This document shows, piece by piece, positions 2,280 to 20,687 of a stretch of DNA of 32,510 bases; the first letter of the stretch is position 1; the number at the start of each line of letters is the position of its first letter. The position numbers and the translations under genes were made by a program. Origin of the DNA: Spirochaetales bacterium (GTDB taxonomy: Bacteria; Spirochaetota; Spirochaetia; Sphaerochaetales; Sphaerochaetaceae); assembly GCA_012514185.1 (NCBI GenBank), contig JAAZAT010000259.1, forward strand, positions 1 through 32,510. Direction: 5' to 3'. Below the pieces are notes generated by a model. That model made no database searches and had not been told where the DNA came from. It saw only the letters and a program-made list of their open reading frames with translations.

Positions 2280-2293
2280 GGGGAGCCAACAGT

Positions 2294-3775
2294 ATGCAGG
2301 CATTTCTTCAAGGACTACAACTTACTACAACGTTTCCAGCATTGTTTGCGATTTTCATCGGCAGCATTGGTGGCATCATCATCGGCGCCCTCCCCGGATT
2401 GTCTTCAACACTTGGTGTTGCATTGCTTGTTCCCTTTACCTTTGGATTGGAGCCGGCGACTGCGATGGGCCTTTTGGCGGGCATGTATTGCTCATCAATC
2501 TATGGAGGCTCGATTACTGCGATTCTCATCAATACCCCGGGAACAGGGGCTGCAGCTGCAACGGTACTTGATGGATATCCCATGACCAAGAACGGCCAGG
2601 CTGGAAAGGCTCTGTATACGGCCATCATCTCTTCATTCATCGGAGGCATGTTTGGTACCTTTGCACTGCTGTTCATTGCCCCTCTCCTGTCCCGCGTCGC
2701 CTTGAAATTCGGTCCTCCCGAGACATTTATGTTGAGTGTCTTCGGCTTGACGATCATTGCGTCCGTCTCAAGCAAGAATTTAACCAAAGGAATCATGGCC
2801 GGATTGTTCGGTCTGTTGCTGAGCACTGTTGGATTCGATTCCGTCACCGCATACCCCCGCTATGCTTTCGGCAACATCCACCTGTATGAGGGCATCGCAT
2901 TGGTTGTCGCCCTTGTCGGCTTCTTCTCGATTCCCGAAGCGCTGACACTGGTGAAATCGAAGCAGAAGAAAATGAATATCGACATCGACCTGAAGAAAAA
3001 TTCGGATGACAACAGGCTTACGGGCAAAGAGATTCTGCGCCTGATACCCACCTTCCTGCGAGGATCGGTCATAGGGACGCTCATCGGGATCATCCCCGGT
3101 GTGGGAACGCCGGTGGCTTGCTTTCTTGCATACAATGAGGAGAAACGATTCTCAAAACATCCGCATCTGTTCGGTACAGGCATTATAGAGGGGGTTGCAG
3201 CCCCTGAAACTGCCAACAATGCGGTTGAAGGCGGATCCTTTGTCCCGTTGCTTACATTGGGTATTCCCGGCAGTTCCCAGACAGCTGTGTATCTCGGTGC
3301 GCTGTTGATACTCGGGATCAAACCCGGCCCTGAGCTCTTTTCAACCCAAGCTCCGATTGCTTACTCCATCATCCTTGGACTGTTCATCGCCAACATCATG
3401 ATGCTGTTTCTTGGACTCGGTGGTGTCCGGTACTTCGTCAAGATCATCAAGATGCCCAATGCAGTGATGATTCCGGTCATCCTGACCTTCTCGATCATCG
3501 GTGCATATGCGATCAATGCGAGCATTTTCGATGTCGGTCTCATGTTCTTCCTTGGCCTGATCGGGTATGTGATGAGGTTGAATTCGATCCCGATTGCACC
3601 GACGGTCCTGGCCTTGATCCTCGGCCCCATCGGGGAGGATGCCTTCCAGCAAACGGTATCCATCACCCATGGGCAGGTTTGGATGATTTTCTCGCGGCCC
3701 ATCTGTATTGTGCTACTGGTTATCACGGTTCTATCGGTATTTTTCAGCTTGAGAAAGAACAGGATTGTGGAGTGA
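2294..3775 (+). CDS. TTT transporter large membrane subunit (TctA family)
   Basis: This 493-residue protein is the large channel subunit of the TTT transporter. The TctA hallmarks are clear: the N-terminal GGIIIGALPGLSSTLGVALLVPFTF segment (about residues 26-50), the GSITAILINTPGTGAAAAT segment that follows, and a second related repeat in the middle with GIIPGVGTPVACFLAYNEEKR and PETANNAVEGGSFVPLLTLGIPGS. About ten to twelve membrane segments are expected, and the length is normal for the family (about 500). The start has AGGGGG upstream at the end of tctB. Its 3' end is followed by the binding-protein gene. It acts in the inner membrane, taking substrate from TctC and coupling uptake to an ion gradient (family knowledge). 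Confidence 0.96.
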   Translation: MQAFLQGLQLTTTFPALFAIFIGSIGGIIIGALPGLSSTLGVALLVPFTFGLEPATAMGLLAGMYCSSIYGGSITAILINTPGTGAAAATVLDGYPMTKNGQAGKALYTAIISSFIGGMFGTFALLFIAPLLSRVALKFGPPETFMLSVFGLTIIASVSSKNLTKGIMAGLFGLLLSTVGFDSVTAYPRYAFGNIHLYEGIALVVALVGFFSIPEALTLVKSKQKKMNIDIDLKKNSDDNRLTGKEILRLIPTFLRGSVIGTLIGIIPGVGTPVACFLAYNEEKRFSKHPHLFGTGIIEGVAAPETANNAVEGGSFVPLLTLGIPGSSQTAVYLGALLILGIKPGPELFSTQAPIAYSIILGLFIANIMMLFLGLGGVRYFVKIIKMPNAVMIPVILTFSIIGAYAINASIFDVGLMFFLGLIGYVMRLNSIPIAPTVLALILGPIGEDAFQQTVSITHGQVWMIFSRPICIVLLVITVLSVFFSLRKNRIVE

Positions 3776-6307: not shown

Positions 6308-7051
6308 ATGCCTGCTTTATTCGAAGATAGGAGAATCCCGCGGTACGTACAGGTTATCGATTATATTCAAGACCATATCATGCGGGGAGAATGGGGGCCG
6401 CACCACAAAGTCCCCAGTGAAGACGATCTTTCCAATCAATTCTCATTCGCCCGCGGTACAATCCGGCAAGCCATCAATGAGCTGGTGAACTCAGGAGTCT
6501 TATACCGCATCCAGGGAAAAGGTACGTTTGTAGGGCCGAAACTCATCCAGCATGATGTAAGCACTTCGGGTTTCCGCTCTTTCTTGGATGAGTTCATCGA
6601 TAAGAATGTAGTATTTGAGACAATCCAGCTTGGATGTGTGATCGTGCCTATGTTCACTCCGATCAGCGATGTGATGCATCTGGATTCAGCGGATAAAAGA
6701 TTGGTGAAGATCAAACGGCTGCGAACCACGTGCGGCGACCCGTTCATGTATTCGGAGAACCACATTCCCCTGGACCGGTATCCGGGCATTTCCGAACTTG
6801 ATTTCTCGCATCATGGCATCTATGAGATTCTTCAATCAAAATACGACTTGAAAGTCGGATCGATGAAACGGTATTTCCAGGCGGTCAAGGCCGAAGGAGA
6901 TGCCGCCCGCTTGCTGAAAGTGGCGGCGGGTTCCCCCCTGATTCTTATCGAGCAAATCGTATTCGATCGTGACGGTGCATGCACCGATTATGCCTTCATC
7001 TGGTTCAGAAGCGACAAGGTCAGAATATCTGTAGACATGAATCGGCATTGA
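6308..7051 (+). CDS. GntR-family transcriptional regulator, HutC subfamily
   Basis: The protein has 247 residues, the usual size for HutC-type GntR regulators. The N-terminal winged helix-turn-helix (about residues 10-76) contains the family pattern KVPSEDDLSNQF, then RGTIRQAINELVNSGVLYRIQGKGTFV. The rest is a UTRA ligand-binding domain, with the typical KIKRLRTTCGDPFMYSENHIPL segment and a final LIEQIVFDRDGACTDYAFIWFRSDKVRI strand. GGAG at 6296-6299 stands 8 nt before the ATG. Its place directly after the TTT operon and the shared 19-bp motif suggest it controls that operon and itself; the effector would be the imported compound or a product of it (inference). Confidence 0.93.
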   Translation: MPALFEDRRIPRYVQVIDYIQDHIMRGEWGPHHKVPSEDDLSNQFSFARGTIRQAINELVNSGVLYRIQGKGTFVGPKLIQHDVSTSGFRSFLDEFIDKNVVFETIQLGCVIVPMFTPISDVMHLDSADKRLVKIKRLRTTCGDPFMYSENHIPLDRYPGISELDFSHHGIYEILQSKYDLKVGSMKRYFQAVKAEGDAARLLKVAAGSPLILIEQIVFDRDGACTDYAFIWFRSDKVRISVDMNRH

Positions 7052-7957: not shown

Positions 7958-8656
7958 TCAGAGCGGCTTGATGCTCAGGTTCTCGCCCTCAAGACCGATT
8001 TTCACTCCTTGGGAAGTGAGTTGGATGCGGTTCGGATGGGCGAGCATCCACTTGTTTTGCTTGAACAGCAGCCTATCCTCTTCGGTGTTCTCCCTATACC
8101 GGCCTTCTTGGTCCAACGGCTCGTTCGTCCCCTTTGGAAGGACGATGATGGATTTGAAGCCCTCTTGGTGTACACACAGCGGAGCCAGGTGCAGCACCTT
8201 TGCCTTGATAAGTGCAACCGAACCCTTGGGAAAGTAAAAGAGTTCCGCTGCATTGGTGTGGACTGAATTGAAATCCTTCAACTGGGAGAAAGGAGTCAGG
8301 AACTGCAGGCAGTCGGTCACTGCAATGAACAGTTCGGGACTCTTGTGGTACTCGGCACCGTTGATCGATCTGTTGCGTCCGTTACAGTACCCAACCTGGA
8401 TCTCCTCTCCTTCAAAGTATGCAGACAGGCTCTTGGCCTCATCGAGCACTTCCAACTCCGGCAGTGAAGCGACATAGATGTTTCCCTCTTGGGGAATGGC
8501 GGTAAGCCTGTGCGCTGTCTCCAGGAGGTCGTCAACCTTCAGCTCTTCGAGCAAGGCCCCGTACTGGGCAAATCGTGAGGAGTCGATGCGATGAATCATG
8601 AAATGGGGATTTGCGCTGATCAATGCGCCGGGAATTTGATAAAAAGCTGATTGCAT
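7958..8656 (-). CDS. DUF4867 family protein in the sulfoglycolysis operon
   Basis: A 232-residue soluble protein that I place in the uncharacterised DUF4867 family. The family-like landmarks are GYCNGRN (about residues 89-95), AEYHKSPEL (101-109), AELFYFPKG (137-145), VLHLAP (154-159) and the VLPKGTN stretch (172-178). The mix of short strands with E102, H104, E138 and H156 suggests a cupin-like metal site (inference). It is the last gene of the leftward operon, 3 bp after the TSUP exporter stop. Cupin-type folds include several sugar isomerases and epimerases, so a role in anomer or keto-aldose handling of sulfo-sugars is possible, but no function is established. No signal peptide is visible. 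Confidence 0.72.
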   Translation of the reverse strand: MQSAFYQIPGALISANPHFMIHRIDSSRFAQYGALLEELKVDDLLETAHRLTAIPQEGNIYVASLPELEVLDEAKSLSAYFEGEEIQVGYCNGRNRSINGAEYHKSPELFIAVTDCLQFLTPFSQLKDFNSVHTNAAELFYFPKGSVALIKAKVLHLAPLCVHQEGFKSIIVLPKGTNEPLDQEGRYRENTEEDRLLFKQNKWMLAHPNRIQLTSQGVKIGLEGENLSIKPL

Positions 8657-8659
8657 GGT

Positions 8660-9403
8660 TTACCTCGTACCTATCAACATGAAGATTCCAGTCAACAAGA
8701 GCATGGAGAATACGATAAGGGAGAATTTGCGCGCATCGACCCTGTCGTGCACCCGTTCCCCGATGACCACCCCCACGACAACGAAGGGTATGAGCAAGGC
8801 TGTCGTTTTCAAGGTACCCTGGTCGAGAGATCCCTCTCCGATGTATGTTGCGATGATGATCGTATTGAGCGTTGTCCACAACAGGCAGAGCGTGGCCCTG
8901 AAGGAACCCTTGTCCGGCAGGGCGCGGGTGGCGTAGAGCACCACCAAGGGGCCGCCGGAGGAGAAAAGGCCATGAACGATGCCTCCCAGAACGAGCAGCG
9001 CATAGTAGGGCAGGGCCCGCTTTCCTTGGGGAAGGCCGCCCTGTTCCTGCTTGCGCACAAGCCGGTACAGCTGGCTGACTGAGACAAGAACGATGAATAC
9101 GGCCAGGATTATCGAGAGGGAGGAAGTGTCCTGGCTGCGAAAAAGATACATGCCGAAGGGAAGACCGGCAAGCATGCAAGCGGTGATGATTGCATAGTGC
9201 TTGAAGTCAATCCTGCGAACATTTCTCACCGCCAAGTACAGGGCCAGCAACCATGCAAGGATGGTGATGACTTTCACCGCAGTCTTCACCCCGAGCAGGG
9301 CGCTGACAAACGGCATGGCAAGCACTGCACACCCGAACCCGGTCACTGCTTCCAAGGCATGGGTGATCAGGACGACCACACCGCTGGCAAGAATTGCACT
9401 CAC
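8660..9403 (-). CDS. TSUP (TauE/SafE) family anion exporter
   Basis: A 247-residue polytopic membrane protein of the TSUP family. The N-terminal repeat has TGFGCAVLAMPFVSALLGVKTAV, and the second repeat has GGIVHGLFSSGGPLVVLYATRALPDK followed by an FRATLCLLW stretch; both are typical of TauE/SafE proteins, with about seven to eight membrane segments. The start is a GTG whose GTGA overlaps the stop of the alcohol dehydrogenase gene, so translation is coupled. TSUP members export sulfonates and sulfite-related anions, and one is a regular part of sulfoglycolysis clusters, where it removes the C2 or C3 sulfonate end product. Here isethionate is the expected cargo (inference from the neighbouring genes). 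Confidence 0.88.
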   Translation of the reverse strand: MSAILASGVVVLITHALEAVTGFGCAVLAMPFVSALLGVKTAVKVITILAWLLALYLAVRNVRRIDFKHYAIITACMLAGLPFGMYLFRSQDTSSLSIILAVFIVLVSVSQLYRLVRKQEQGGLPQGKRALPYYALLVLGGIVHGLFSSGGPLVVLYATRALPDKGSFRATLCLLWTTLNTIIIATYIGEGSLDQGTLKTTALLIPFVVVGVVIGERVHDRVDARKFSLIVFSMLLLTGIFMLIGTR

Positions 9404-10569
9404 CGCTTGGCCTCGATGATGCGGTGAAGGTCATCCTTGGACAGGGGCGGCTTCTGATTGTGCAGCTTCGGATCGTCAAGGCAACGGTCGAAGATCGAGA
9501 TGTCTGTGAGCTCGACGCCGATGTCGGCGAACCTGGTTGGAATACGAAGGTCCTGCATCAAAGTTGCGATGTCGTCTCTGAGGGCTGCAACGGCTTGCCC
9601 GTCGCTGAGGGAGGGGTGGAAATGCTTGCCGATGCAGGCCAGCTCTGTCCGATTCGTCTCATCCTGCACCGCCCAGTCGAAGATTTCCAGCAACGTGAAG
9701 GCGCACGCAAGGCCATGGGGAACATGCCAATCCTCGCTGAGGACAAAGGAAATGGCATGCCCGGCGGCGGTCCCGGTGATGTTGAAGGCGATCCCGGCTT
9801 TTGTGGATGCCTGCAGCATGGCCTTCATGAGTTCCCGCTTCCGGGGACTCTGCTCTTGGATGGCCTTGTGCAACTTGGGAAGGGTTTCCAGGATATCGAT
9901 GGCAGCATTGCGCCCTATCGTTCTGGTGATGGGAGTGCTGTTCTTGTTCCAGATCGACTCCAAGGCATGGTCCAGGGCATCCAGGCCTGTGGCAGCACAC
10001 AGGGAGGGGGGAACGCTGTCGAGCAGGGATGCAACCAAGAGTGCGGTGTGGGCGGTCATCAGGGGAGAGCCAAGGGTGTACTTCCTTCCGCTTTCGGCGG
10101 TGTAGACCCCCACTTTGGTGACTTCCGAACCCGTACCTGCGGTGGTGGGAATCAAGACCAGCGGTTTTGAGCGCTCGGTGATGCGCCGCTTCGGGTTGTT
10201 CGTGAGGTACTCCTCAAGACTTCCACCGTTGGATGCGAGCATGGCAAGCGCTTTAGCCGAGTCGAGGGTGCTGCCGCCGCCGATGCCCAGGACGACATCG
10301 CACGCAGCAAACCGCGGATCGGTATACATGTTCATGATGTCCACGGTTCGGGGGTTCGGCTGGATCTTATTGAAGATCCTGACTTGAACACAGTCAGCCA
10401 ACTCCTCCAGCAGGGTGTCCTTGGCAGGAATCGGGGCGCCGTCGACGACAGCGCCTACGATGAGCCCTTCCTCCTTGTTTGCCGAGAACTGGAGGATACT
10501 GGCAAGGGTTTTTCCGTTCAGATCGGCAAAGCTCTGGATATGAACCGAGCTTGCCAGGCTTTCGATCAT
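9400..10569 (-). CDS. Iron-type alcohol dehydrogenase, candidate sulfoacetaldehyde reductase
   Basis: A 389-residue group III (iron-dependent) alcohol dehydrogenase. The NAD(H) loop is GIGGGSTLDSAK (about residues 95-106), followed by PTTAGTGSEVTK (141-152). The metal ligands expected for the family are present: D197 and H201 in GLDALDHALE, H271 and H285, the last two with the same 14-residue spacing as in E. coli FucO. Its ATG overlaps the RpiB-like gene stop by 4 nt. In this operon the likely reaction is NADH-dependent reduction of sulfoacetaldehyde to isethionate, which would regenerate NAD in a fermenter; an iron-type ADH (SarD of Bilophila) is known to do this. Reduction of another short sulfo-aldehyde cannot be excluded. 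Confidence 0.88.
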   Translation of the reverse strand: MIESLASSVHIQSFADLNGKTLASILQFSANKEEGLIVGAVVDGAPIPAKDTLLEELADCVQVRIFNKIQPNPRTVDIMNMYTDPRFAACDVVLGIGGGSTLDSAKALAMLASNGGSLEEYLTNNPKRRITERSKPLVLIPTTAGTGSEVTKVGVYTAESGRKYTLGSPLMTAHTALLVASLLDSVPPSLCAATGLDALDHALESIWNKNSTPITRTIGRNAAIDILETLPKLHKAIQEQSPRKRELMKAMLQASTKAGIAFNITGTAAGHAISFVLSEDWHVPHGLACAFTLLEIFDWAVQDETNRTELACIGKHFHPSLSDGQAVAALRDDIATLMQDLRIPTRFADIGVELTDISIFDRCLDDPKLHNQKPPLSKDDLHRIIEAKR

Positions 10570-11036
10570 TTGAGATTCTCCTCTTCAATGGCCTGCACCT
10601 GTGCGAAGGCATTGGTCAGGAAGTCCTTCTTGAACTCCATCTTCTGGGTGAAGGCCATGGCAAGCCATGCATCGACGATTTGCTTGCCTACAAAGGGTGC
10701 AGTGATCCAGCCCCCGAGGGTGATGACGTTTGCATTGTTCACGATTTTCGCCCGTTCTGCACTGAAAATGTCATCCACCACGCAGGCATAGATGCCTTTG
10801 TGCTTGTTTGCCACGATGGCCATTCCCTGGCCGGTGCCGCAGACCAGGATCCCTTTCTCAGCCTTTCCCTCCTGGATCGCCTTAGCCACCTTGGGGGCCT
10901 GGATGAAGTAGGGTTGTGGTGCGTTCTCGCTCTCGATGCCGAAATCGAGGACGGTGTATCCGCTTTCTTTCAGATGTTCAACCAGCTCCTTCTTGAGGGG
11001 AAACCCGCTCAGATCGCTTGCTATCGCTATGGTCAT
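10566..11036 (-). CDS. RpiB/LacAB-like isomerase, candidate 4-deoxy-4-sulfoerythrose isomerase
   Basis: A 156-residue member of the RpiB/LacAB sugar-phosphate isomerase fold. The catalytic cysteine is kept (C66 in ILVCGTGQGM), but other usual residues are not: the canonical Asp-His near residues 9-10 is Asp8-Leu9, the His99 of E. coli RpiB is V99, and arginines that bind substrate phosphate in RpiB appear replaced (W110 at the GSR/GGR position, no arginine in the TQKMEFKKD region). This argues for a substrate other than ribose 5-phosphate. In described transketolase-type sulfoglycolysis an RpiB-like protein (SqwI) converts sulfoerythrose to sulfoerythrulose, which fits this position between the transketolase and the dehydrogenase. 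Both ends overlap neighbours by 4 nt. Confidence 0.85.
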   Translation of the reverse strand: MTIAIASDLSGFPLKKELVEHLKESGYTVLDFGIESENAPQPYFIQAPKVAKAIQEGKAEKGILVCGTGQGMAIVANKHKGIYACVVDDIFSAERAKIVNNANVITLGGWITAPFVGKQIVDAWLAMAFTQKMEFKKDFLTNAFAQVQAIEEENLK

Positions 11037-11983
11037 GCATTCCTCCTTGTGCCTTGTACCAATGTCAGGGCCTTGCGTGTGATTTCTTCTGCAGTGAGGC
11101 GGTAGTGCTCAGCGAGCCAGGATTGCGTACCGACCTGACCGAACTCGTCGTGGATGCCCACCATCGCCATCGGTGTGGGATAATTTTGTGAAAGGAAGTT
11201 TGCCACTGCAGAGCCCAAGCCTCCGGCTGTCTGATGGTTCTCGGCCGTTACGATGCAGCCGGTTTTCTTTGCATAGGAGAGGACGAGCTCCTCATCCAAG
11301 GGCTTGACGGTATGCATGTCGATTACCGCTGCATCCAAGCCTTTTTGCTTGAGCAACTCCCGCGCCTTGATAGCTTCACCGACCATGATGGCCCCGAGGG
11401 CGATGATGGTAACATCGCTGCCGTCGCCGAGCACCTTGCCCTTGCCCAAGGTGAAGGATTCTCCTTCTTCATACAAGGCAGGGACAGCCTTGCGGTGCAG
11501 GCGCATGTAGGTGCACCCTTGGTGCTCTGCACACGCTTTGACCAACGCCTTCAGGCTTACCGGGTCGGATGGCTCGATGATGGTCAGGCCCGGGATCATG
11601 CGCATCAGGCCGATATCCTCGAAGGGCATGTGCGTTCCCCCGTTGAAGGCCGCACTGATGCCGGGGTCGGTTCCCACCAGCTTCACGTTCAACCTTGCAT
11701 AGTTGGCGGAGATGAAGAACTGGTCAAACACCCGTCTTGAGGCGAAGCAACCGAAGGTGGCTGCAAAGGGAATCTTGCCGGCTGCGCTCAGGCCGGCGCT
11801 CACGCCGACAAGGTTGGCTTCGGCGACGCCGACATCGACGGCACGATCGGGGAACCTCTGCTTGAAAGCCATGGTCCCGCTTGCCCGCATTAAATCAGCT
11901 TCGACCACCATGATCCGGTCATCTGCCTGCGCAAGCTCGATAAGGGTATCGCAGTAGACTGCGCGCATCTCTTTGGTTTCCAT
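11033..11983 (-). CDS. Transketolase, C-terminal subunit (sulfo-transketolase SqwH/G-like)
   Basis: This is the pyrimidine-binding and C-terminal half of a two-subunit transketolase. The open frame extends to 12037, but AGGAGG (11989-11994) lies 5 nt before the ATG at 11983, giving 316 residues. The TPP-activating glutamate is E55 in VGVAEANLVGVSAGL; the TFGCFASRRVFDQ region and the C-terminal transketolase domain (DVTIIALGAIMVGEA, then VTAENHQTAGGLGSAV) follow in normal order. The gene begins 10 bp after the N-terminal subunit stop, and its stop overlaps the RpiB-like start. Split transketolases are common in Firmicutes and spirochaetes; the sulfo-specific role is inferred from the operon and the operators. 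Confidence 0.93.
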   Translation of the reverse strand: METKEMRAVYCDTLIELAQADDRIMVVEADLMRASGTMAFKQRFPDRAVDVGVAEANLVGVSAGLSAAGKIPFAATFGCFASRRVFDQFFISANYARLNVKLVGTDPGISAAFNGGTHMPFEDIGLMRMIPGLTIIEPSDPVSLKALVKACAEHQGCTYMRLHRKAVPALYEEGESFTLGKGKVLGDGSDVTIIALGAIMVGEAIKARELLKQKGLDAAVIDMHTVKPLDEELVLSYAKKTGCIVTAENHQTAGGLGSAVANFLSQNYPTPMAMVGIHDEFGQVGTQSWLAEHYRLTAEEITRKALTLVQGTRRNA

Positions 11984-11993
11984 CATCTCCTCC

Positions 11994-12815
11994 TCATCCC
12001 AGCTCGGCAATCGCCGCTTTGGCGGTTTGCAGATCAAAGTTCATATTGTGGTTGGTTACCTTGTTCTCGCAGAAGGAGGCTCCCTTTCCCTTGATGGTAT
12101 CCAGGATGATCATCGAGGGTTTGTCCGATTGCTCTTGTGCCTTCTGGATGGCACCATCCATCGCTGCAAGGTCATGGCCGTCGACGCGCTGGGTGAACCA
12201 ACCGAAACTCTTCCATTTCATCTCGATGTCCCCGAGGCTCATGATGTCATCGGTCATGCCGTCGATCTGCATTTTGTTGTTGTCGGTGAAGGCAATCAGG
12301 TTTGCGAGCTTGTAATGGGCGGCAAAAAAGGCAGCCTCCCAGTTTTGTCCTTCCTGACTCTCCCCGTCGCCGATGACGGCATAGACATAGCGGTCCTTTT
12401 TGTCGATTTTCCCTGCATAGGCTAGACCGCAGGCGGCTGACAGGCCCTGGCCGAGAGAGCCTGTGGTCATGTCAATTCCCACCGTCTTGGTCCGGTCGCA
12501 GTGACTGGGAAGGTTGGTTCCTCCCTGGTTGAGCGTATCCAGCTCCGATAGGGGGAAGAAGCCCTTGAGCGCCAGTGTTGCGTACAACGCCGGTCCTGCA
12601 TGACCCTTGGACAAGACCAGAAGGTCACGGTCCTCCCAGGTCGGGTTGGCAGGATCGATGTGCATCACCTTGCCGTAGAGCAGGGCCAGCAAGTCCGCGA
12701 TCGAGAGGGCGCCGCCGATGTGTCCGACGCCGAGATTTCCAATCGTATACAGGGTTTTCTTGCGGATTTCCTTGGCGAAATCCGACAGGGTCCGCAGTTG
12801 TTGCGAGGTGAGCAT
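11994..12815 (-). CDS. Transketolase, N-terminal subunit (sulfo-transketolase SqwG/H-like)
   Basis: A 273-residue TPP-diphosphate-binding half of a split transketolase. GHIGG (31-35), SKGHAGPALYA (69-79), GSLGQGLS (119-126) and the GDG...NN metal/TPP motif (GDGE 149-152 to N179-N180) are all present. It is the first gene of the leftward operon; AGAGAGG stands upstream of the ATG, and the promoter and operator at 12835-12879 lie directly ahead. With the C-terminal subunit it should transfer two-carbon ketol units. In the proposed pathway it acts twice: sulfofructose plus glyceraldehyde 3-phosphate gives sulfoerythrose and xylulose 5-phosphate, then sulfoerythrulose plus glyceraldehyde 3-phosphate gives sulfoacetaldehyde and xylulose 5-phosphate. 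A housekeeping role cannot be excluded from sequence alone. Confidence 0.93.
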   Translation of the reverse strand: MLTSQQLRTLSDFAKEIRKKTLYTIGNLGVGHIGGALSIADLLALLYGKVMHIDPANPTWEDRDLLVLSKGHAGPALYATLALKGFFPLSELDTLNQGGTNLPSHCDRTKTVGIDMTTGSLGQGLSAACGLAYAGKIDKKDRYVYAVIGDGESQEGQNWEAAFFAAHYKLANLIAFTDNNKMQIDGMTDDIMSLGDIEMKWKSFGWFTQRVDGHDLAAMDGAIQKAQEQSDKPSMIILDTIKGKGASFCENKVTNHNMNFDLQTAKAAIAELG

Positions 12816-12834
12816 GAAGGTACCTCTCTTTTAG

Positions 12835-12851
12835 TTACTTAGTGAAAGTAA
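12835..12851. promoter_or_regulatory. Putative ROK-repressor operator, copy 1
   Basis: TTACTTAGTGAAAGTAA contains inverted half-sites TTACTT and AAGTAA separated by 5 bp. It abuts the -10 box and covers the expected start site of the leftward operon. The same architecture recurs at 14150-14166 (14 of 17 bases identical, all differences in the central spacer), with a TATAT shortly after both. Confidence 0.75.
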
Positions 12852-12879
12852 ATATATTCCATTCCTTCCTGCTTGTAAA
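12851..12879 (-). promoter_or_regulatory. Promoter of the leftward transketolase operon
   Basis: On the minus strand, TTTACA (12879-12874) and TATATT (12856-12851) are separated by exactly 17 bp. Transcription should start near 12844, inside the operator at 12835-12851. Confidence 0.78.
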
Positions 12880-12887
12880 GCCACTTC

Positions 12888-12916
12888 TTGTGGATTTTTT
12901 TCATCGATGGTATTAG
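12888..12916 (+). promoter_or_regulatory. Probable promoter of the ROK regulator gene
   Basis: TTGTGG (12888-12893), a 17-bp spacer and TATTAG (12911-12916) preceded by TGG, which gives an extended -10. The start would be near 12923. No operator copy lies in this promoter, although copy 1 is about 40 bp upstream of the -35 box. Confidence 0.5.
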
Positions 12917-12940
12917 ACTGGTCGCACAAGGGAGGGTGCA

Positions 12941-14104
12941 ATGCAAGGAAATCCACTGAGGGCATCAGATTTGCGGGTCCATAATCAGAATATGGTGCTC
13001 TCCCTCATCCATGCTTCCAAGGAAGCAGGCACCAGCCAATCGGAGGTGGTGCAAAAGACCGGGTTGAAAGCCCCGACCATTTTCCGCATCTTCACCTCCT
13101 TGGAAGAAGAAGGCCTGATAGTCCCCGCCCAGGGCAATACAGAGGATGTCGTGGCAAAGAAGGGAAGGAGACCGGTCCTGTATGTGGTTTCCAAGCATGC
13201 CCGGTATACCATCGGTCTTGAATTTTGGACCGCCTTTCTCTCCCTCGGTGTCTTCGACTTCCAAGGCGAGCGGATCTATTCGGTCATGCATCCGCTCTCC
13301 GAATCCGTGCATGCGGGCCAGGTAATCGACCTCATCGTGAGCGAGATCCATCGGATACTGGCCGAACTTTCCATCCCCAAGCAGAAGATCATCGGGGTGG
13401 GGGTGGCTGCCCCCGGCCAAGTCGACCTCGCAGGCAAGCGGGTGCGCTACTATCCCCGCATCGAGGGCATGAAGGATATTGCCTTGGTCGATGAGCTTTC
13501 GAGCCGGCTCGGCCTTGCGGTGATGATCCACAACAACTGCAGCGCCCTTGCCTTCAGCGAGTACCGCTACGGCGGATTCAACCACCAGGGCAGCATGTTC
13601 ACCTTCCTGCTCAGGACCGGGGTGAATGGTGCCTTCGTGCATGATGACGAGATCTACATAAACAGCCAGAACCAGACTATCGAGTGTGGCCATATCCCGA
13701 TCGACAGTGACGGGCCCCGGTGCAGTTGCGGCAGTCGCGGCTGCCTGCAGGCGTATCTGCAGGACCTGGACCCGAACTCCGTGGAGCTCAGGCTCGCCCT
13801 GTTTGAAGGGCTTGAAGAGAAGCTCCAAAACGGTGATGGAGTGGCAAAGCGGACTATCGAACGGGCTGCCGGGTACCTGGTCATCGCGATGAAGGTTCTC
13901 ACCCGTCTGCTGGCTCCGAAATCCTTCCTGTTCGTTGGGTGTTGTGAGACCATCGCCCAGGCCTTGCGTGAACAAGTCGAACACCTCTTGAGCGAACCTG
14001 ATGCTTTCTGCTCGGAAACCCCGCAAATTTTTGCTACCGCGTATGACCCGTTGCTTGCCCAGAAGGGGGCGAGCGACTTGGTGCTCCAAGAGTACTTCCG
14101 CTGA
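12941..14104 (+). CDS. ROK-family transcriptional regulator of the sulfoquinovose genes
   Basis: A 387-residue ROK repressor. The N-terminal winged helix (about residues 15-75) has the pattern SQSEVVQKTGLKAPTIFRIF then LEEEGLI. The ROK sugar-kinase-like core follows, with GVGVAAPGQVD, a NNCSALAFSEYRYGG stretch, ECGHIPIDSDGPRCSCG and the zinc-binding CSCGSRGC motif. The ATP-binding DxGGT motif of active kinases is degenerate (GLEFWTAFLSLGV), as in many ROK repressors, so it is a sensor and not a kinase. AGGGAGGG precedes the ATG. It lies between the two divergent blocks, each of which has the TTACTT-N5-AAGTAA operator, so it is the natural candidate to bind both and respond to SQ or a pathway intermediate (inference). 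Confidence 0.92.
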   Translation: MQGNPLRASDLRVHNQNMVLSLIHASKEAGTSQSEVVQKTGLKAPTIFRIFTSLEEEGLIVPAQGNTEDVVAKKGRRPVLYVVSKHARYTIGLEFWTAFLSLGVFDFQGERIYSVMHPLSESVHAGQVIDLIVSEIHRILAELSIPKQKIIGVGVAAPGQVDLAGKRVRYYPRIEGMKDIALVDELSSRLGLAVMIHNNCSALAFSEYRYGGFNHQGSMFTFLLRTGVNGAFVHDDEIYINSQNQTIECGHIPIDSDGPRCSCGSRGCLQAYLQDLDPNSVELRLALFEGLEEKLQNGDGVAKRTIERAAGYLVIAMKVLTRLLAPKSFLFVGCCETIAQALREQVEHLLSEPDAFCSETPQIFATAYDPLLAQKGASDLVLQEYFR

Positions 14105-14121
14105 AAAAACGAAAGTTTTCA

Positions 14122-14148
14122 TTGACGAAACAGGTATTGTGGTATTTA
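14122..14148 (+). promoter_or_regulatory. Probable promoter of the rightward isomerase-ABC-SQase block
   Basis: TTGACG (14122-14127) and TATTTA (14143-14148) are 15 bp apart, slightly short. The operator at 14150-14166 follows at once, mirroring the arrangement at the leftward promoter, which strengthens the call. Confidence 0.55.
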
Positions 14149-14149
14149 C

Positions 14150-14166
14150 TTACTTATGGAAAGTAA
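14150..14166. promoter_or_regulatory. Putative ROK-repressor operator, copy 2
   Basis: TTACTTATGGAAAGTAA has the same half-sites and 5-bp spacing as 12835-12851. It lies about 50 bp before the isomerase start codon and just downstream of the predicted -10 box. Confidence 0.75.
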
Positions 14167-14218
14167 CTATATCAGGTGAAGCTTGGCCTTCCCCTTTCCC
14201 ATCCATAAGGAGTCGAGC

Positions 14219-15535
14219 GTGAAACATCCCGTAACGATAGCAGTAGTATGCCTTGCAAGAAAAACCTATGACTATGAGGCTGCAAGACAGCTCTATTCCA
14301 AGATCCGTCAGGATCTCAAGAAGATCGAGGATGTCCAGTGGTGCTTTATCGATGAGCTGGTGATCAGCCAGGAAGACGGCATGGCAGCTGCATCCAAGCT
14401 GGCAGGCGAGCATGTGGATGGCTTGATCTGCATTTCCGGGACATTCCATCTGGGGCATCTGGTCCTGATGCTCAAGCGCGAGCTTTCGGTTCCTGTTCTT
14501 CTGTGGGGCCTGCCTGAGCTGCCGTACAACGGGGGAAAGATTCGGCTCAATTCGGTATGCGGAGTGAACCTGAACGCCTCCAACCTCTATAAGAGCGGGT
14601 TTGACGACTATTCGGTCATCATCCAACATACGGTTGACGAGGATTGGATTGATGCCCTTCGGGTGATCAAGGCGATGAAGGGCGCAAAAATCGGCATCAT
14701 CGGATATCGTGCCGACGGATTCTTCAATGTCGGGGTGCAGGACAACCTGCTTTTCGGACAGACCGGAGCCTTGGTCGATCATTATGAGCTGTCCGATGTG
14801 CACACCTATGAGGTGCCTGCCGAGCAAGTTGCACAGCGGCGCAAGCAGCTTGAGGCGACGTTCGATGTCTCAACCCTGTCTGCATACCAGCTGGATAAGG
14901 TGTCCCAGCTCTCTGCAAAACTTGATGCCTTCTACCATGCAAACGGACTGTCCGCCCTTGCGATCCGCTGTTGGCCGGAGTTTGCCCGCGATTTCGGGGT
15001 TTCCCCCTGCGCGGCGATGTCGTTGCTGCAATCAGAGGGCCTCATCCTGGCTTGCGAAGGGGACATCGACGGAGCTCTTTCCATGATCGCCCACAAGGCA
15101 CTTGGGGCCCAGACGCCCTTCCTCTTCGACTTCTCGCAAGTGGATTTCGAACAGGATTTCGCTCTTTTCTGGCATTGTGGGGTGGCCCCCTGCAACCTTT
15201 GGGACGGTGTATGCAACCGAAGCCTGGACACCTACTTTGCCGGCGGCAAGGGTGTGACAGCAGATTTTGTCCTGAAGAGCGGAGAGCTTTCGGTGCTTCG
15301 CATCGATTCAGCCCGGGGTGGATACCGCATGTTCCTGCAGAAGGCGAAAGCCATACCCATGGAGAAGCTGCTGAAGGGAACGTACATGAAGGTGGTGTTC
15401 GACCGGCCGGTCAGGGAGGTATTGAACCTGGTACTGGACAACGGACTCGCCCACCACTCGTCGGTGGTGTACGGCTCTTTCATCCGCCCCTTGGAGTTCG
15501 TTGCCAAGATCAAGGGATGGCAGGTAATCCAGTAG
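14219..15535 (+). CDS. L-fucose/arabinose isomerase-like protein, candidate sulfoquinovose isomerase
   Basis: The frame is open from 14183, but AAGGAG at 14207-14212 sets the GTG at 14219 as start, giving 438 residues. The sequence has the layout of the fucose-isomerase fold: an N-terminal Rossmann-like domain (DGLICISGTFHLGHL near 67-81, VPVLLWGLPELPYNGG near 91-106), then IGIIGYRADGFFN, and the catalytic C-terminal part with CWPE (251-254), ACEGDIDGALS (278-288), FLFDF (301-305) and FWHCGVAPCNLWDG. E280, D304 and H319 are likely metal or acid/base residues by analogy with FucI. In sulfoglycolysis variants using unphosphorylated sulfofructose, an isomerase of this kind (SqvD) makes sulfofructose from SQ. 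First gene of the rightward block; the substrate is inferred from its neighbours. Confidence 0.82.
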   Translation: MKHPVTIAVVCLARKTYDYEAARQLYSKIRQDLKKIEDVQWCFIDELVISQEDGMAAASKLAGEHVDGLICISGTFHLGHLVLMLKRELSVPVLLWGLPELPYNGGKIRLNSVCGVNLNASNLYKSGFDDYSVIIQHTVDEDWIDALRVIKAMKGAKIGIIGYRADGFFNVGVQDNLLFGQTGALVDHYELSDVHTYEVPAEQVAQRRKQLEATFDVSTLSAYQLDKVSQLSAKLDAFYHANGLSALAIRCWPEFARDFGVSPCAAMSLLQSEGLILACEGDIDGALSMIAHKALGAQTPFLFDFSQVDFEQDFALFWHCGVAPCNLWDGVCNRSLDTYFAGGKGVTADFVLKSGELSVLRIDSARGGYRMFLQKAKAIPMEKLLKGTYMKVVFDRPVREVLNLVLDNGLAHHSSVVYGSFIRPLEFVAKIKGWQVIQ

Positions 15536-15607: not shown

Positions 15608-16873
15608 ATGTTGAAAAAATCAAGATTACTTGCGGCTCTGCTGATGCTTTGCCTGGTCTTCCCGCTCGTTGCCCAGGGACAAGTCGAGAGTGCTCCCGCC
15701 AAGGAGATTGAACTTCGCTGGGCGAGCATTTGGGTAGGAAACGACAGCAAGGCCCCTGCAGTTGAAGCCTTGGTGGCTGAATACAACGCCAAGAATGCCG
15801 GAAAGATCAAGGTCGTGATTGAACCGCAGCCCGACTACAATGCCTACGAGCAGAAAGTGCGAACCAGCCTTGCTGCAGGACAGGCACCGGCGGACATCTT
15901 TACGATCAAGTTCAATCCGACCACGGCGACCTTCTACCAGAGCAACCTGCTCATGGATTTCGCAAAGGTCATGGATGCTTCTTGGAAGCAGACCTTCGAT
16001 GCCGGCTCACTCGAGCAATCGACCGTTGACGGCATGCTCAAGTCCCTGCCGATGGAGACTGCAATCCTGCCCATCTGGTACAACATGGATGCATTCAAGA
16101 AAACCGGCATCACCGAGCTTCCGACCACCCTTGATGGAATGTTTGCTGCATTTGACAAGCTGAAGGCAGCCGGCATCACCCCGACCAGCCAGATGACCGG
16201 TGACACCAATGCGTGGACTTCCATGATTTGGTTCAGCCATTTCGCCGTTTCATTGGGTGGAACCAATGTATGGGAGAAGAGCTTCACCGATCCAGCCTTC
16301 GTCGAAGCAGCCAAGCTGACCAAGCGCATGATCACCGAATACTCGACCAGTGATGCAGTCGGCTTGGGAGCCGGCGGCAGCGGCGGTCACTTCCTCGCCG
16401 GTCGCACTGCAGTCTTCTCCAACGGGCCTTGGTATGCCGGTCGTGCAGACCTTGCAGCAACCCCGTTCTTCAACTCCATCAAGATTGCGGGTCTTCCCGC
16501 TGCCGGTTCGACCAAGGATTTCATGATCAGCCGCCTGCAGGCAAACATCTGCGCAGCCTCCTCCAAGGATAAGGCTCGAGAAGCAGCTATTGTCGACTTC
16601 CTGAAGTTCTTGACCAGCGCTCCCTCCATCTCCAAGATTGCCGAGACCAGTGGTGCAATGTTCGCCATCAAGACCGACTATCGTCCCACAAAGGCTCTGC
16701 AGAAGCAGTTCTATGATGTTGCTGTTGCTGCCAAGACCACCGCTTTCGATCTCGAAGCCGCCCTCGGTGCAGAAGTGACGCTTGAGTTTGCCCAGCAACT
16801 CGGAGCCCTTGCCCTCGGACGCATCAGTGCAGAAGAGTTCTGCGCCTTGGTCGACCGCAAAATCGAACGCTAA
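15608..16873 (+). CDS. ABC sugar-binding protein, candidate SQ/SQ-glycerol receptor
   Basis: A 421-residue extracellular solute-binding protein of the MalE type (family 1). The N-terminus MLKKSRLLAALLMLCLVFPLVAQGQ is a signal peptide, with no lipobox cysteine. Typical features follow: a first strand IELRWASIWVGND, the EYNAKNAGKIKVVIEPQPDYNAYEQKVRTSLAAG section, DIFTIKF, the MLKSLPMETAILPIWYNMDAFKKTGI hinge region, and GRTAVFSNGPWYAG. GGAGA lies upstream of the ATG. It is followed by two permease genes and the SQase gene, so the probable ligand is SQ or sulfoquinovosyl glycerol; the binding specificity is not visible in the sequence. It acts outside the inner membrane. Confidence 0.92.
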   Translation: MLKKSRLLAALLMLCLVFPLVAQGQVESAPAKEIELRWASIWVGNDSKAPAVEALVAEYNAKNAGKIKVVIEPQPDYNAYEQKVRTSLAAGQAPADIFTIKFNPTTATFYQSNLLMDFAKVMDASWKQTFDAGSLEQSTVDGMLKSLPMETAILPIWYNMDAFKKTGITELPTTLDGMFAAFDKLKAAGITPTSQMTGDTNAWTSMIWFSHFAVSLGGTNVWEKSFTDPAFVEAAKLTKRMITEYSTSDAVGLGAGGSGGHFLAGRTAVFSNGPWYAGRADLAATPFFNSIKIAGLPAAGSTKDFMISRLQANICAASSKDKAREAAIVDFLKFLTSAPSISKIAETSGAMFAIKTDYRPTKALQKQFYDVAVAAKTTAFDLEAALGAEVTLEFAQQLGALALGRISAEEFCALVDRKIER

Positions 16874-16932: not shown

Positions 16933-17826
16933 ATGCAAGCAGTTGGTACGCACCGAAGCCGAGTCTGGACAGCAAGAGTTCTATTTTTGCTTCCGGTCTC
17001 CGTTCTCTTCTTTTTCTTTTTCATCTATCCGTTTCTCTTCACCATCTACACAAGTTTCACCAGTTGGAGAGGGATCGGGTCGATGAAATTCAACGGCCTG
17101 GCCAACTATACCAAGCTCCTTGGCGACCCCACCTTTCGCAAAGCCTTGGGAAACAACGTCGTATGGGCGCTTTCCCAAGGGTTCATCCAAGTTCCCCTGG
17201 CCTGCTTGATAGCCATGATCCTGGTGCGCAAACCTCGGTTCTGGCGATCGCTGAGAACCATTTACTACCTTCCCAACGTCATTTCCACCGTCGCCCTGGC
17301 AATGGTCTGGGTCGCCATTTACAACGTGGAGGGACCCTTGAATGCAATTCTGGGTGCCCTGTTCGGCGCTGAGAAGCGCAACTGGCTGGGCAACCCTGAT
17401 ACCGCCCTCTTCGCGGTCATCTTCCAGACGGTCATCTATATCGGTTACTTCATGATCATCCTGCTCGCTTCGGCCATGAACATTCCCCGTTCCCTGTACG
17501 AGGCTGCCGAGATCGACGGGGCTTCCACCTTCCAGCAGGAGTTGAGCATCACCCTTCCCATGCTGCGCGGCAGCCTCATCACCACCATGACGCTGGCAAT
17601 GGCCTACGGCATGCGTCACTTTGAATCGACCTTCCTGATGACCGGAGGCGGGCCTGCGTATGCGACCACCACCATGGGCATCGACCTCTATCTGAAAATG
17701 GATGCCCTGCGGTACAGCGAGGCAAGTACTGCAGGCGTGTTCCTCATAATCATGGGAACGGTGGTGATCACCGTTCTTCGCAAGATCTTCGGTTCTTCAG
17801 ACCCGATGAGCGAAATGGCACAGTAG
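16933..17826 (+). CDS. ABC sugar permease, MalF/UgpA type
   Basis: A 297-residue inner-membrane permease with six predicted membrane segments (the first at about residues 17-40, LLPVSVLFFFFFIYPFLFTIY). The EAA loop that contacts the ATPase is SLYEAAEIDGASTFQQELSITLPML (about residues 190-215), as is normal for the MalF/UgpA class. CAGGAG at 16921-16926 is 6 nt before the ATG. It follows the binding-protein gene after 59 bp and precedes the second permease by a few bases, so the three belong to one transporter. No ATPase gene is present in the window, so it must share a MsmK/MalK-like ATPase encoded elsewhere. Confidence 0.94.
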   Translation: MQAVGTHRSRVWTARVLFLLPVSVLFFFFFIYPFLFTIYTSFTSWRGIGSMKFNGLANYTKLLGDPTFRKALGNNVVWALSQGFIQVPLACLIAMILVRKPRFWRSLRTIYYLPNVISTVALAMVWVAIYNVEGPLNAILGALFGAEKRNWLGNPDTALFAVIFQTVIYIGYFMIILLASAMNIPRSLYEAAEIDGASTFQQELSITLPMLRGSLITTMTLAMAYGMRHFESTFLMTGGGPAYATTTMGIDLYLKMDALRYSEASTAGVFLIIMGTVVITVLRKIFGSSDPMSEMAQ

Positions 17827-17835
17827 GAGATGACG

Positions 17836-18678
17836 ATGAAGCACACCTATACACCCGCTCAGATCATCGCCAACTTCCTCAAATGGATCTTGCTGCTCTC
17901 CCTGTTGGCCGTAGCCCTGCTGCCTCTTCTGTGGCTGCTGATAAGCTCGCTGAGGACGAACCTGGAGCTGCAGACCAACCCCTTCGGCTGGCCGAAGGAC
18001 ATGCAATGGGTCAACTATGCAAAGGCCCTTGCCATGGCAAGCCTGCCCAGGTTGTTGCTCAACTCCGCAGTGGTGGCTGCAAGCAGCGTCATCCTCAACA
18101 GCGCCGTCACCGCCATGGCCTCCTTCATCCTCGCTCGTGAACGATTTCGGGGCCGGGATGTGCTCTACACCTTGTTTACCGCCGGGGTCCTTGTTCCCGT
18201 CATCTCGTTCATGGTTCCCTACTTCTCTCTCATTACCAAGAGCGGGCTGTACAACACCTTGCTCGCTCTGGTGCTTGTCTATACGGCAGTGAATATTCCT
18301 GTTTCAATCTTTCTGGTAACCGCCTTCATGAAGTCGATCCCCAAGGAGTTGGAAGAGGCCAGCGTCATCGACGGTTGCGGCTTTTTCAAGCGGTTCTCGG
18401 TCATTATTCTCCCGCTCTCCCGTTCCGGCCTCGTCACTGCGGCTACCTTCTGCTTCATCTACAGCTGGAATGAGTTTCTGATGGCGATGCTCCTGACCTC
18501 CTCGATCGAATCGAGGACCATCCAGCTTGGCATCAAGTTCTTCACCAGCCAATTCATCACCGACTATGCTAGCATGTATGCAGCGGTAGTCATCACCATA
18601 ATTCCCAGCATCGTTGGATATGTGTTCCTCCATGACAAGATCATCGGCGGCTTGACCGCCGGCGCGGTGAAGGGGTAG
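17836..18678 (+). CDS. ABC sugar permease, MalG/UgpE type
   Basis: An inner-membrane permease of 280 residues. Two ATGs are possible, 17830 and 17836; AGGAG (17825-17829) gives a 6-nt spacing to 17836, so that one is preferred. Six membrane segments are expected, and the EAA loop reads KELEEASVIDGCGFFKRFSVIILPL. The conserved C-terminal half includes SWNEFLMAMLLT and the end IIGGLTAGAVKG, typical of MalG-type proteins. The SQase gene starts 2 bp after its stop, which implies a shared transcript and coupled translation. Confidence 0.94.
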   Translation: MKHTYTPAQIIANFLKWILLLSLLAVALLPLLWLLISSLRTNLELQTNPFGWPKDMQWVNYAKALAMASLPRLLLNSAVVAASSVILNSAVTAMASFILARERFRGRDVLYTLFTAGVLVPVISFMVPYFSLITKSGLYNTLLALVLVYTAVNIPVSIFLVTAFMKSIPKELEEASVIDGCGFFKRFSVIILPLSRSGLVTAATFCFIYSWNEFLMAMLLTSSIESRTIQLGIKFFTSQFITDYASMYAAVVITIIPSIVGYVFLHDKIIGGLTAGAVKG

Positions 18679-18680
18679 GC

Positions 18681-20687
18681 ATGATCAGCTTTTCCAAACA
18701 AAACGGCAAACTCTCGGTTTTCTACAATCAGCTCAAGATTCTCGAACACAGCGAAAGTTCTCCCATGCTTGTGCTCAAGCGAGGCAAGGAGAGCGTGGAC
18801 ATGTACCGGGGCAACTTTTTCATCAGTGATGCAATTGAAGAGACCCTGCCGCTTGGCACCTATCTGCTCAGTGAGTCGTACAGCGAAGGCAGGGGTGTTT
18901 CCAATCTCACCTTCAGCGCAGGTGCAAAGACGTTCAGTCTCGAGTTGAGCGAGCGGGACGGGAGGCTCCACCTGGGTTTCTCACCCCTTCCAGAGCCCTA
19001 CAACCGACTCTTCATCCGCTTCCATGCCGACCCGCTCGAGTGTGTATGGGGTTGCGGGGAGCAGTTCTCCCATTTCAACCTCAGGGGAAAAAACTACCCC
19101 CTGTGGACCCAGGAACAAGGAGTGGGCAGGAACAAGGAGACTGAAATCACGCAAATCGCCGATCGTCTGGACCGTGCCGGCGGCGATTACCATACCACCT
19201 TCTACCCGCAGCCCACCTTCGTCTCAAGCAGGCGCTACTTTGTGCATGCCGATACCTATGGGTATGCTGATTTCGATTTCTCCAATCCGTCGTACCATGA
19301 ACTGCAGTTCTGGGACGTTCCTGACAGCATTGTCCTTTCCGTCAAGCCGAGCTTGCTGGAAGTGGTGCAGGATGTCTCCCGTTTCCTCGGGAGGCAGCAA
19401 ACCCTTCCAGGGTGGGTGTACGACGGTATCATCTTGGGGATGCAGGGTGGAACCAGCACCTGCCTTCAGAAGCTTGCGCGGGTGCAAGAGTCCAACATGA
19501 AGGTTGCAGGCTTGTGGATCCAGGACTGGGAAGGGGAGAAATACACCAGCTTCGGCAAGCGCCTTCGATGGAACTGGCAGTGGGACCAGAAGCTCTATCC
19601 CGGTCTGGATGCCGAGATTGTGCGACTGCGGCAGAGCGGGGTCCGGGTTCTGGGCTACATCAATCCCTACGTGCTGGTCGATCATCCGCTCTACGAAGAG
19701 GCTGCGCGGCTTGACTTGTTGGGAAAGCGGGAGGACGGCTCGGTGTATCTGGTTGATTTCGGCGAGTTCGATGCAGCCATCGTCGACTTCACCAAGCCTG
19801 AGGCTGTAGCCTGGTACAAGCAGGTGATCAACAAAGAGCTCATCGATTTCGGCCTATCCGGCTGGATGGCCGATTTTGGGGAGTACCTGCCCACCGATGT
19901 CGTACTTGCCGGAGGAAAGCCGGCAATGCTCGAACACAACAGGTGGCCGGGCTACTGGGCTGAGATCAACAAGGATGCCATCCAGGAGGCCGGCAGGCAG
20001 GACGATATTCTTTTCTTCATGCGCGCCGGTTGCGCGCGCAGCCTCAGTTCGTGCCGGATGATGTGGGCGGGGGACCAGAATGTGGATTGGTCGGAGGATG
20101 ACGGTCTTCCTTCCGTCCTCACTGCAACCCTCTCGCTGGCGATGAGCGGCATGGGGCTCAATCACAGCGATATCGGAGGTTACACCACCCTCTATGGCAT
20201 GAAACGCAGCAAGGAGCTTTTGATCAGGTGGGCCGAACAGGCCGCCTTCTCCCCCTTGATGCGCACCCACGAGGGAAACCGACCAAAGGACAACTGGCAG
20301 TTCGACAGCGACCAAGAGACCATCGATGCACTAGCCCGGATGACTGATGTGCACGTCAAGCTCAAGCCGTATCTTATGCATCTGGACGAGGAGAATGCAC
20401 ATGAGGGGATTCCGGTGGTCAGGCCGATATTCCTGCACTACGAGCTTGAGGCTTTCTGGAATGTGAAGGACTCCTATCTCTTGGGACGGGACCTCTTTGT
20501 TGCTCCCGTCCTCGAACAAGGAGCTGGAAGGCGGGAAGTGCTGCTTCCCGACGACCAGTGGGTGCACCTGTTCACCAAGCTCGAGTACCAGGGAGGGAGG
20601 CACACGGTCGAGGCGCCGCTGCTCCGCCCTCCAGTCTTCTACCGAAAGGCCAGCAGCTTCGCCCCTCTCTTTGCATCGATTCAGTAG
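18681..20687 (+). CDS. yihQ: Sulfoquinovosidase, GH31 (YihQ-like)
   Basis: This 668-residue GH31 alpha-glycosidase is the anchor of the whole assignment. It follows E. coli YihQ closely from memory: WIQDWEGEKYTSFGKR, WMADFGEYLPTD, MWAGDQNVDWS, HSDIGGYTTLY and MRTHEGNRPKDNWQFD. The catalytic nucleophile is D398 and the acid/base D465, 67 apart as in YihQ (405, 472). The sulfonate-recognition residues are also present with identical spacing: R294 and W297 (YihQ R301, W304) and Y501 (Y508). Ordinary GH31 alpha-glucosidases lack this set. No signal peptide, so it acts in the cytoplasm, releasing SQ from imported sulfoquinovosyl glycerol. Its last 7 nt overlap the end of the convergent endonuclease gene. 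Confidence 0.96.
   Translation: MISFSKQNGKLSVFYNQLKILEHSESSPMLVLKRGKESVDMYRGNFFISDAIEETLPLGTYLLSESYSEGRGVSNLTFSAGAKTFSLELSERDGRLHLGFSPLPEPYNRLFIRFHADPLECVWGCGEQFSHFNLRGKNYPLWTQEQGVGRNKETEITQIADRLDRAGGDYHTTFYPQPTFVSSRRYFVHADTYGYADFDFSNPSYHELQFWDVPDSIVLSVKPSLLEVVQDVSRFLGRQQTLPGWVYDGIILGMQGGTSTCLQKLARVQESNMKVAGLWIQDWEGEKYTSFGKRLRWNWQWDQKLYPGLDAEIVRLRQSGVRVLGYINPYVLVDHPLYEEAARLDLLGKREDGSVYLVDFGEFDAAIVDFTKPEAVAWYKQVINKELIDFGLSGWMADFGEYLPTDVVLAGGKPAMLEHNRWPGYWAEINKDAIQEAGRQDDILFFMRAGCARSLSSCRMMWAGDQNVDWSEDDGLPSVLTATLSLAMSGMGLNHSDIGGYTTLYGMKRSKELLIRWAEQAAFSPLMRTHEGNRPKDNWQFDSDQETIDALARMTDVHVKLKPYLMHLDEENAHEGIPVVRPIFLHYELEAFWNVKDSYLLGRDLFVAPVLEQGAGRREVLLPDDQWVHLFTKLEYQGGRHTVEAPLLRPPVFYRKASSFAPLFASIQ

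Follow-up and report, generated by a model that had tools for sequence, protein, structure and literature searches.

The palindrome pair TTACTT-N5-AAGTAA in the window (the whole stretch of 32,510 nucleotides analyzed) flanks the gene of a ROK-family regulator and very probably represents the operators of this protein. As judged from sequence comparison, this regulator would repress both adjoining gene blocks and be released by sulfoquinovose (SQ) or an early sulfosugar. The preliminary description had taken the pair as direct evidence for joint control of the divergent transketolase and importer/sulfoquinovosidase (SQase) blocks. Joint control was supported by our comparison, but the evidence is more appropriately termed strong comparative evidence. 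It comprises uniqueness in the assembly, genus-wide specificity for SQ genes, co-occurrence with the ROK gene, sites at operon heads, sites at unlinked SQase/symporter genes, and absence from loci lacking the ROK gene.

Gene cluster, promoters and probable operator pair

The relevant features, with coordinates and strand, are as follows:

7958-8656, minus: DUF4867 protein (PF16161), final gene of the left block; stays with the pathway in relatives
8660-9403, minus: TauE/SafE-family exporter, SqwE candidate (PF01925)
9400-10569, minus: Fe-dependent alcohol dehydrogenase, SqwF sulfoacetaldehyde reductase candidate (PF00465; sub-cut-off match to a sulfoacetaldehyde reductase model)
10566-11036, minus: RpiB-like isomerase, SqwI candidate (PF02502)
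11033-12037, minus: sqwH-like transketolase C-terminal subunit (PF02779/PF02780)
11994-12815, minus: sqwG-like transketolase N-terminal subunit (PF00456), first gene of the left block
12830-12852, no strand: putative operator 1, transketolase block, TTTAGTTACTTAGTGAAAGTAAA; includes the 17-mer at 12835-12851; kept in orthologous genus loci with the region available
12851-12879, minus: transketolase-block promoter, TTTACA (12879-12874)-17-TATATT (12856-12851)
12941-14104, plus: ROK-family regulator with winged HTH and kinase-dead ROK domain, proposed repressor (PF00480, E 1.4e-25)
14122-14150, plus: isomerase-block promoter, TTGACG (14122-14127)-17-TTTACT (14145-14150), its -10 box overlapping operator 2
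14145-14167, no strand: putative operator 2, isomerase/importer/SQase block, TTTACTTACTTATGGAAAGTAAC; includes the 17-mer at 14150-14166
14219-15535, plus: SqvD-like sulfoquinovose isomerase (NF048012, E 3.5e-61, below the equivalog cut-off)
15608-16873, 16933-17826 and 17830-18678, plus: ABC importer, solute-binding protein and two permeases (family searches)
18681-20687, plus: GH31 SQase of the YihQ type (NF007746, 903 bits vs. a cut-off of 553)

By family assignment, the sulfo-transketolase set SqvD, SqwGH, SqwI, and SqwF was found together with an SQase and an importer in one cluster, and on these assignments the cluster comprises the components of a reductive sulfo-transketolase pathway (PMC11659671, PMC12890257). 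The relatives of the window belong to Sphaerochaeta, and the cluster is also found in Sphaerochaeta halotolerans (L047). SqvD probably starts at GTG 14219 behind AAGGAG, and not at the mechanical ORF start (14183); its homologues align from about residue 12 of the mechanical ORF.

Both palindromes were located exactly where they had been reported, copy 1 (TTACTTAGTGAAAGTAA) at 12835-12851 and copy 2 (TTACTTATGGAAAGTAA) at 14150-14166, and the ROK gene lies between them as claimed; the distance of 1315 bp between the copies, over which DNA looping may be considered, is set by the length of this gene. A search of both strands of the whole assembly (2.76 Mb, 315 contigs, 86% complete) returned these two exact 17-mers only, compared to about 0.08 expected by chance from base composition. 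Furthermore, 100 dinucleotide shuffles of the window contained zero exact matches.

The preliminary description had placed the sites just downstream of a -10 box, one for each direction of transcription, and this was borne out. The last base of the transketolase -10 box TATATT is the first base of 17-mer site 1, and the last base of the isomerase -10 box TTTACT is the first base of site 2. In the longer register described below, operator 2 spans the isomerase -10 box except for its first base. The transketolase promoter was kept as TTTACA-17-TATA(T/G)T in the genus. The isomerase -10 box agrees with the consensus at 4/6 positions, a weak match by itself, and is credible because it is conserved: the -35 box, the 17-bp spacing, and the -10 position recur in nearly all relatives. 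At both promoters, the -10 box ends at or lies within the operator in nearly all relatives, and the offset between -10 box and operator recurs together with the 17-bp spacing in nearly every relative examined.

The operator is probably better described as a 21-23 bp palindrome, TTTACTTWC-N5-GWAAGTAAA, centred 2 bp to the left of the 17-mer centres. Owing to a tandem TTAC repeat, two palindromes overlap, which renders the register ambiguous within the window. The form TTACTTWC-N5-GWAAGTAA was found with one mismatch at 12831-12851 and with none at 14146-14166, and nearly all sites agreed with it at 14-16 of 16 model positions. In the aligned sqvD sites, the mirror-symmetry score was higher for the 17-mer extended to TAnTTACTT-N5-AAGTAAnTA. 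The 21-23 bp form was preferred because the unlinked sites of three genomes (G094, G106, and G114), e.g., TTTACTTTCCTCTTGAAAGTAAA (L169), are compatible with this form only. The 17-bp motif of the preliminary description is present exactly, but probably constitutes a sub-match of the longer site and not the full operator.

Conservation and distribution of the probable operator

Within the genus, virtually every sulfo-transketolase locus kept both sites, with most of the ROK proteins being only 68-79% identical. Operator 2 was retained 5' of sqvD down to SqvD proteins of approximately 59% identity, and the sqvD-side site persisted in loci with ROK proteins at 43-55% identity. In distant spirochaetes (ROK 32-63% identical), the sqvD-side site was usually present, matching 14-16 of 16 model positions. 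Among 26 genus genomes, the 21-bp form with at most one mismatch occurred in all 16 genomes encoding a ROK orthologue and in none of the ten others (Fisher p = 1.9e-7, a value that overstates independence, since the genomes are related). The preliminary description had proposed a genome-wide search for the motif and had raised the possibility of its being frequent outside SQ genes; beyond its uniqueness in the assembly, 29 out of the 34 exact 17-bp matches in these 26 genomes were located at SQ genes, and a control with the pattern reversed yielded a total of about 10 matches. Outside the genus, single matches were no commoner than control matches, and the pattern alone is therefore not diagnostic there. 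No site was detected at sulfoglycolysis loci lacking the ROK gene (archaeal, clostridial, and other; L067, L069, L070, L072, and L074).

The position of the sites followed the operon layout. In 31 pathway loci, a site (at least 14 of 16 positions, within 250 bp upstream) preceded 52 out of 59 operon-first pathway genes, compared to 1 out of 178 internal genes (Fisher p of about 2e-43, overstated because the loci are related). The importer possessed its own site in L055, L061, L065, L071, and L094. In L065, sites were found 5' of the transketolase and solute-binding protein genes and none 5' of sqvD, and transketolase genes downstream of sqvD had no site of their own. Some operon heads in oddly arranged loci were without a recognisable site (e.g., tktN in L173, DUF4867 in L062-L064). 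Within the 608 kb searched, six sites fell outside the listed genes, four of them preceding other cluster genes, and a mirror-image control gave two matches. The additional cluster sites precede an aldehyde dehydrogenase gene adjoining the pathway (L172 and L173) and Tct-type importers (L094 and L173).

Unlinked sites argued most strongly for the motif being a marker of SQ genes and no by-product of one conserved intergenic region. Blind genome-wide matching revealed such sites in G094, G106, G114, and G112, the loci being L169 (G094; promoter at 3130-3360), L098 (G112), L170, and L171. All of them are located in the promoter of an additional SQase gene of the YihQ family, which is paired with a GPH symporter gene; this second SQase is 39-40% identical to that of the window. 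In the genome of the window, a second YihQ-family GH31 gene (G000:C8:2347-4347; L178 and L181), scoring above the YihQ model cut-off and followed by a GPH-type transporter gene, had no operator, indicating that the regulon omits some SQase-like genes.

Several loci showed unusual arrangements. In G112 (C323; L098:5636-5950), a duplicate of the sqvD promoter with its operator, the start codon, and a truncated remnant of sqvD was recognised by eye and now precedes the second SQase and GPH symporter genes, an apparent promoter capture. In L094 (G094:C1:2760000-2779500), an isomerase-like gene of 26% identity takes the place of sqvD, and the transketolase and ROK genes are separated by a Tct-type importer that possesses an operator-like site of its own (9355). 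The window itself harbors a Tct-type transporter pair (1839-3775) without an operator, resembling the importer inside the SQ clusters of L094 and L173. In G108 (C6:40126-41451; L035 and L075), sqvD matches in three separate pieces, one with an internal stop and one at 54% identity, although the ROK protein is 78% identical; a frameshift or mosaic gene is possible. Perfect operator-like sites unlinked to the SQ cluster were present in G121 (C33), near an esterase-like gene (L167:3823) and near an MFS transporter gene (L166:3985), which are possible further members of the regulon. Two exact sites in G092 (L095 and L096) had no evident link to the pathway and were taken as chance matches.

The ROK regulator and its proposed mode of action

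In the ROK protein, PF00480 spans residues 126-352 and the HTH matches cover approximately residues 18-61; Lmo0178 is the PDB relative in which the HTH region is covered. The zinc motif GH...CxCGxxGC is present (ECGH at 248, CSCGSRGC at 261) and kept in most orthologues. However, the kinase ATP loop DxGGT is gone (GLEFWTA instead of GLDLGGT), as is the catalytic aspartate (HNNCS instead of ENDAN), and the protein is therefore regarded as a sensor without kinase function. The region SQSEVVQKTGLKAPTIFRIF is close to invariant in orthologues with as little as 32-34% overall identity, as would be expected if all of them read the same operator. The HTH region ranks among the best-conserved parts of the protein, and the consensus SQSEVVxxTGLKAPTIFRIF hardly varies among the orthologues at SQ loci. 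The segment RTGVN (225-229), at the position where kinases hold the ATP phosphates, is also strongly conserved and may have been turned into a sulfonate site. Searches of the protein matched ROK and general HTH families only, with no match to the DeoR HTH or the ISOCOT-fold effector domain of the CsqR type. The GntR-UTRA gene of the window (6308-7051) was rejected as the cluster regulator, being missing from all other SQ loci examined.

With regard to a possible autoregulation of the ROK gene, operator 1 is located approximately 90 bp 5' of its start codon, and another conserved block, CACTTCTTGTGGATTTTTT (12882-12900), is situated nearer to the gene. This block is nearly invariant in the genus, has its sole close copy in the assembly here, and persists in L094 despite relocation of the ROK gene. 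Possible roles include those of a promoter for the ROK gene, a leader element, or a weak terminator.

According to the proposed mechanism, a ROK dimer would bind TTTACTTWC-N5-GWAAGTAAA at 12830-12852 and 14145-14167, over or next to the -10 boxes. The bound protein would block the leftward genes for SqwGH, SqwI, SqwF, SqwE, and the DUF4867 protein as well as the rightward genes for SqvD, the ABC importer, and the SQase. Release of the protein would be brought about by sulfoquinovose, by its glycoside, or by an early intermediate, e.g., sulfofructose, so that importer, hydrolase, and catabolic enzymes would be induced together. Repression is proposed because of the operator position at the -10 boxes and by analogy with NagR. 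SQ or an early product, e.g., sulfofructose, is considered the likeliest signal, since the regulated set comprises the importer, the hydrolase, and both halves of the pathway.

That the sites are real operators at which the ROK protein serves as an activator or dual regulator appears unlikely. ROK regulators are able to activate or repress (PMC9599254), and the weak sqvD -10 box TTTACT resembles that of some activated promoters; nevertheless, the operators begin at or inside the -10 box at both promoters in nearly all relatives, a position that blocks polymerase, and both promoters possess a good -35 box at 17-bp spacing. In NagR, moreover, operators over the -10/-35 boxes were associated with repression (PMC9599254). 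Still less probable is the binding of the palindromes by an unlinked transcription factor, with the ROK gene as a passenger. Co-inheritance of the cluster could tie any of its genes to the motif, and binding by the ROK protein is itself deduced. However, no regulator gene other than that of the ROK protein was observed to be retained at SQ loci, the GntR-UTRA gene not being kept, and the motif is missing from sulfoglycolysis loci and genus genomes without the ROK gene. The HTH region of the ROK protein is highly conserved, and the form of the palindrome is usual for ROK operators (PMC4856308).

An origin as chance palindromes or as a dispersed repeat element was given almost no credence and was rejected by the genome-wide counts, the shuffles, and the phylogenetic counts. 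A similar palindrome, CTACTTACTT-N5-AAGTAAGTAG, does occur outside SQ genes before tyrosine-recombinase genes in some relatives, but it forms a separate class, reaching only 13-14 of 16 positions in the operator model, and the deep conservation of the operator and the confinement of the exact assembly copies to the window are at odds with such an origin. With repression by the ROK protein remaining the preferred reading, we consider it rather probable that a dedicated, kinase-dead, sulfosugar-sensing ROK subfamily controls sulfo-transketolase metabolism across the Spirochaetota via TTTACTTWC-N5-GWAAGTAAA, including unlinked SQase/symporter genes in some species.

Relation to known systems and further palindromes

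The arrangement resembles the ROK sugar regulons of NagC/Mlc in E. coli, NagR in Bifidobacterium, and XylR/BglR/TreR, among others, in Thermotogae, in which a winged-HTH plus ROK protein is encoded beside its targets, palindromes with T-rich/A-rich arms lie over the core promoter, and importer and catabolic genes are jointly controlled (PMC9599254, PMC3750489, PMC4856308). ROK regulators commonly have such T-rich/A-rich palindromes (PMC4856308, PMC9599254); in the case of NagR, core promoter elements were overlapped by 10 out of 11 operators, and expression increased upon knock-out (PMC9599254). In contrast to these regulons, the targets here are sulfoglycolysis genes, and the half-site TTTACTTWC is the one of the present group. 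Like the repressor proposed here, CsqR (YihW), acting on the E. coli yih genes, is dedicated to an SQ catabolic cluster, which it represses, and its reported effector is SQ (PMC10991401); it differs by its DeoR/ISOCOT fold and the sulfo-EMP pathway, compared to ROK and the sulfo-transketolase pathway here.

The gene content (SqvD, SqwGH, SqwI, SqwF, and SqwE) corresponds to the sulfo-transketolase clusters of Clostridium sp. MSTE9, Faecalicatena, and Sphaerochaetaceae, the latter of which produce transcripts of the pathway in SQ-containing rumen microcosms (PMC11659671, PMC12890257, PMC13219744). In contrast to the present analysis, the text of these studies contained at most a 'repressor candidate', and no operator or regulon was found there (PMC11659671, PMC12890257, PMC13219744). 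No description of a ROK regulator of SQ genes was found in the openly accessible literature searched, and no priority is claimed. The type of switch is ordinary, and the regulon is well supported and of a familiar type; for the pathway itself, no description of its control was found in that literature.

Among organosulfur compounds, sulfoquinovose is very abundant, and bacteria with the sulfo-transketolase pathway feed isethionate or sulfoacetate to sulfide-producing partners. On comparative evidence, the operator pair unites the divergent blocks of the window as one regulon, and the conserved operator represents a sequence-based tool for finding unlinked SQ genes. It already points to the second SQase and GPH symporter in four genomes, and to the aldehyde-dehydrogenase branch and the Tct-type importers in others. 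Furthermore, the operator provides a testable biosensor candidate.

The recombinase-associated palindrome was located before a tyrosine-recombinase gene in L097 (3159), L100 (3547), L101 (190), and, within the window's own genome, L176 (2805; G000:C153); in L097 and L100, an SmpB-like gene is located in the vicinity. Exact matches in G094 (425158), G100, and G103 likewise precede tyrosine-recombinase genes, belong to this different palindrome, and were rejected as extra targets of the regulon. The recombinase-associated palindrome is perhaps a recombination (dif-like) or autoregulatory site.
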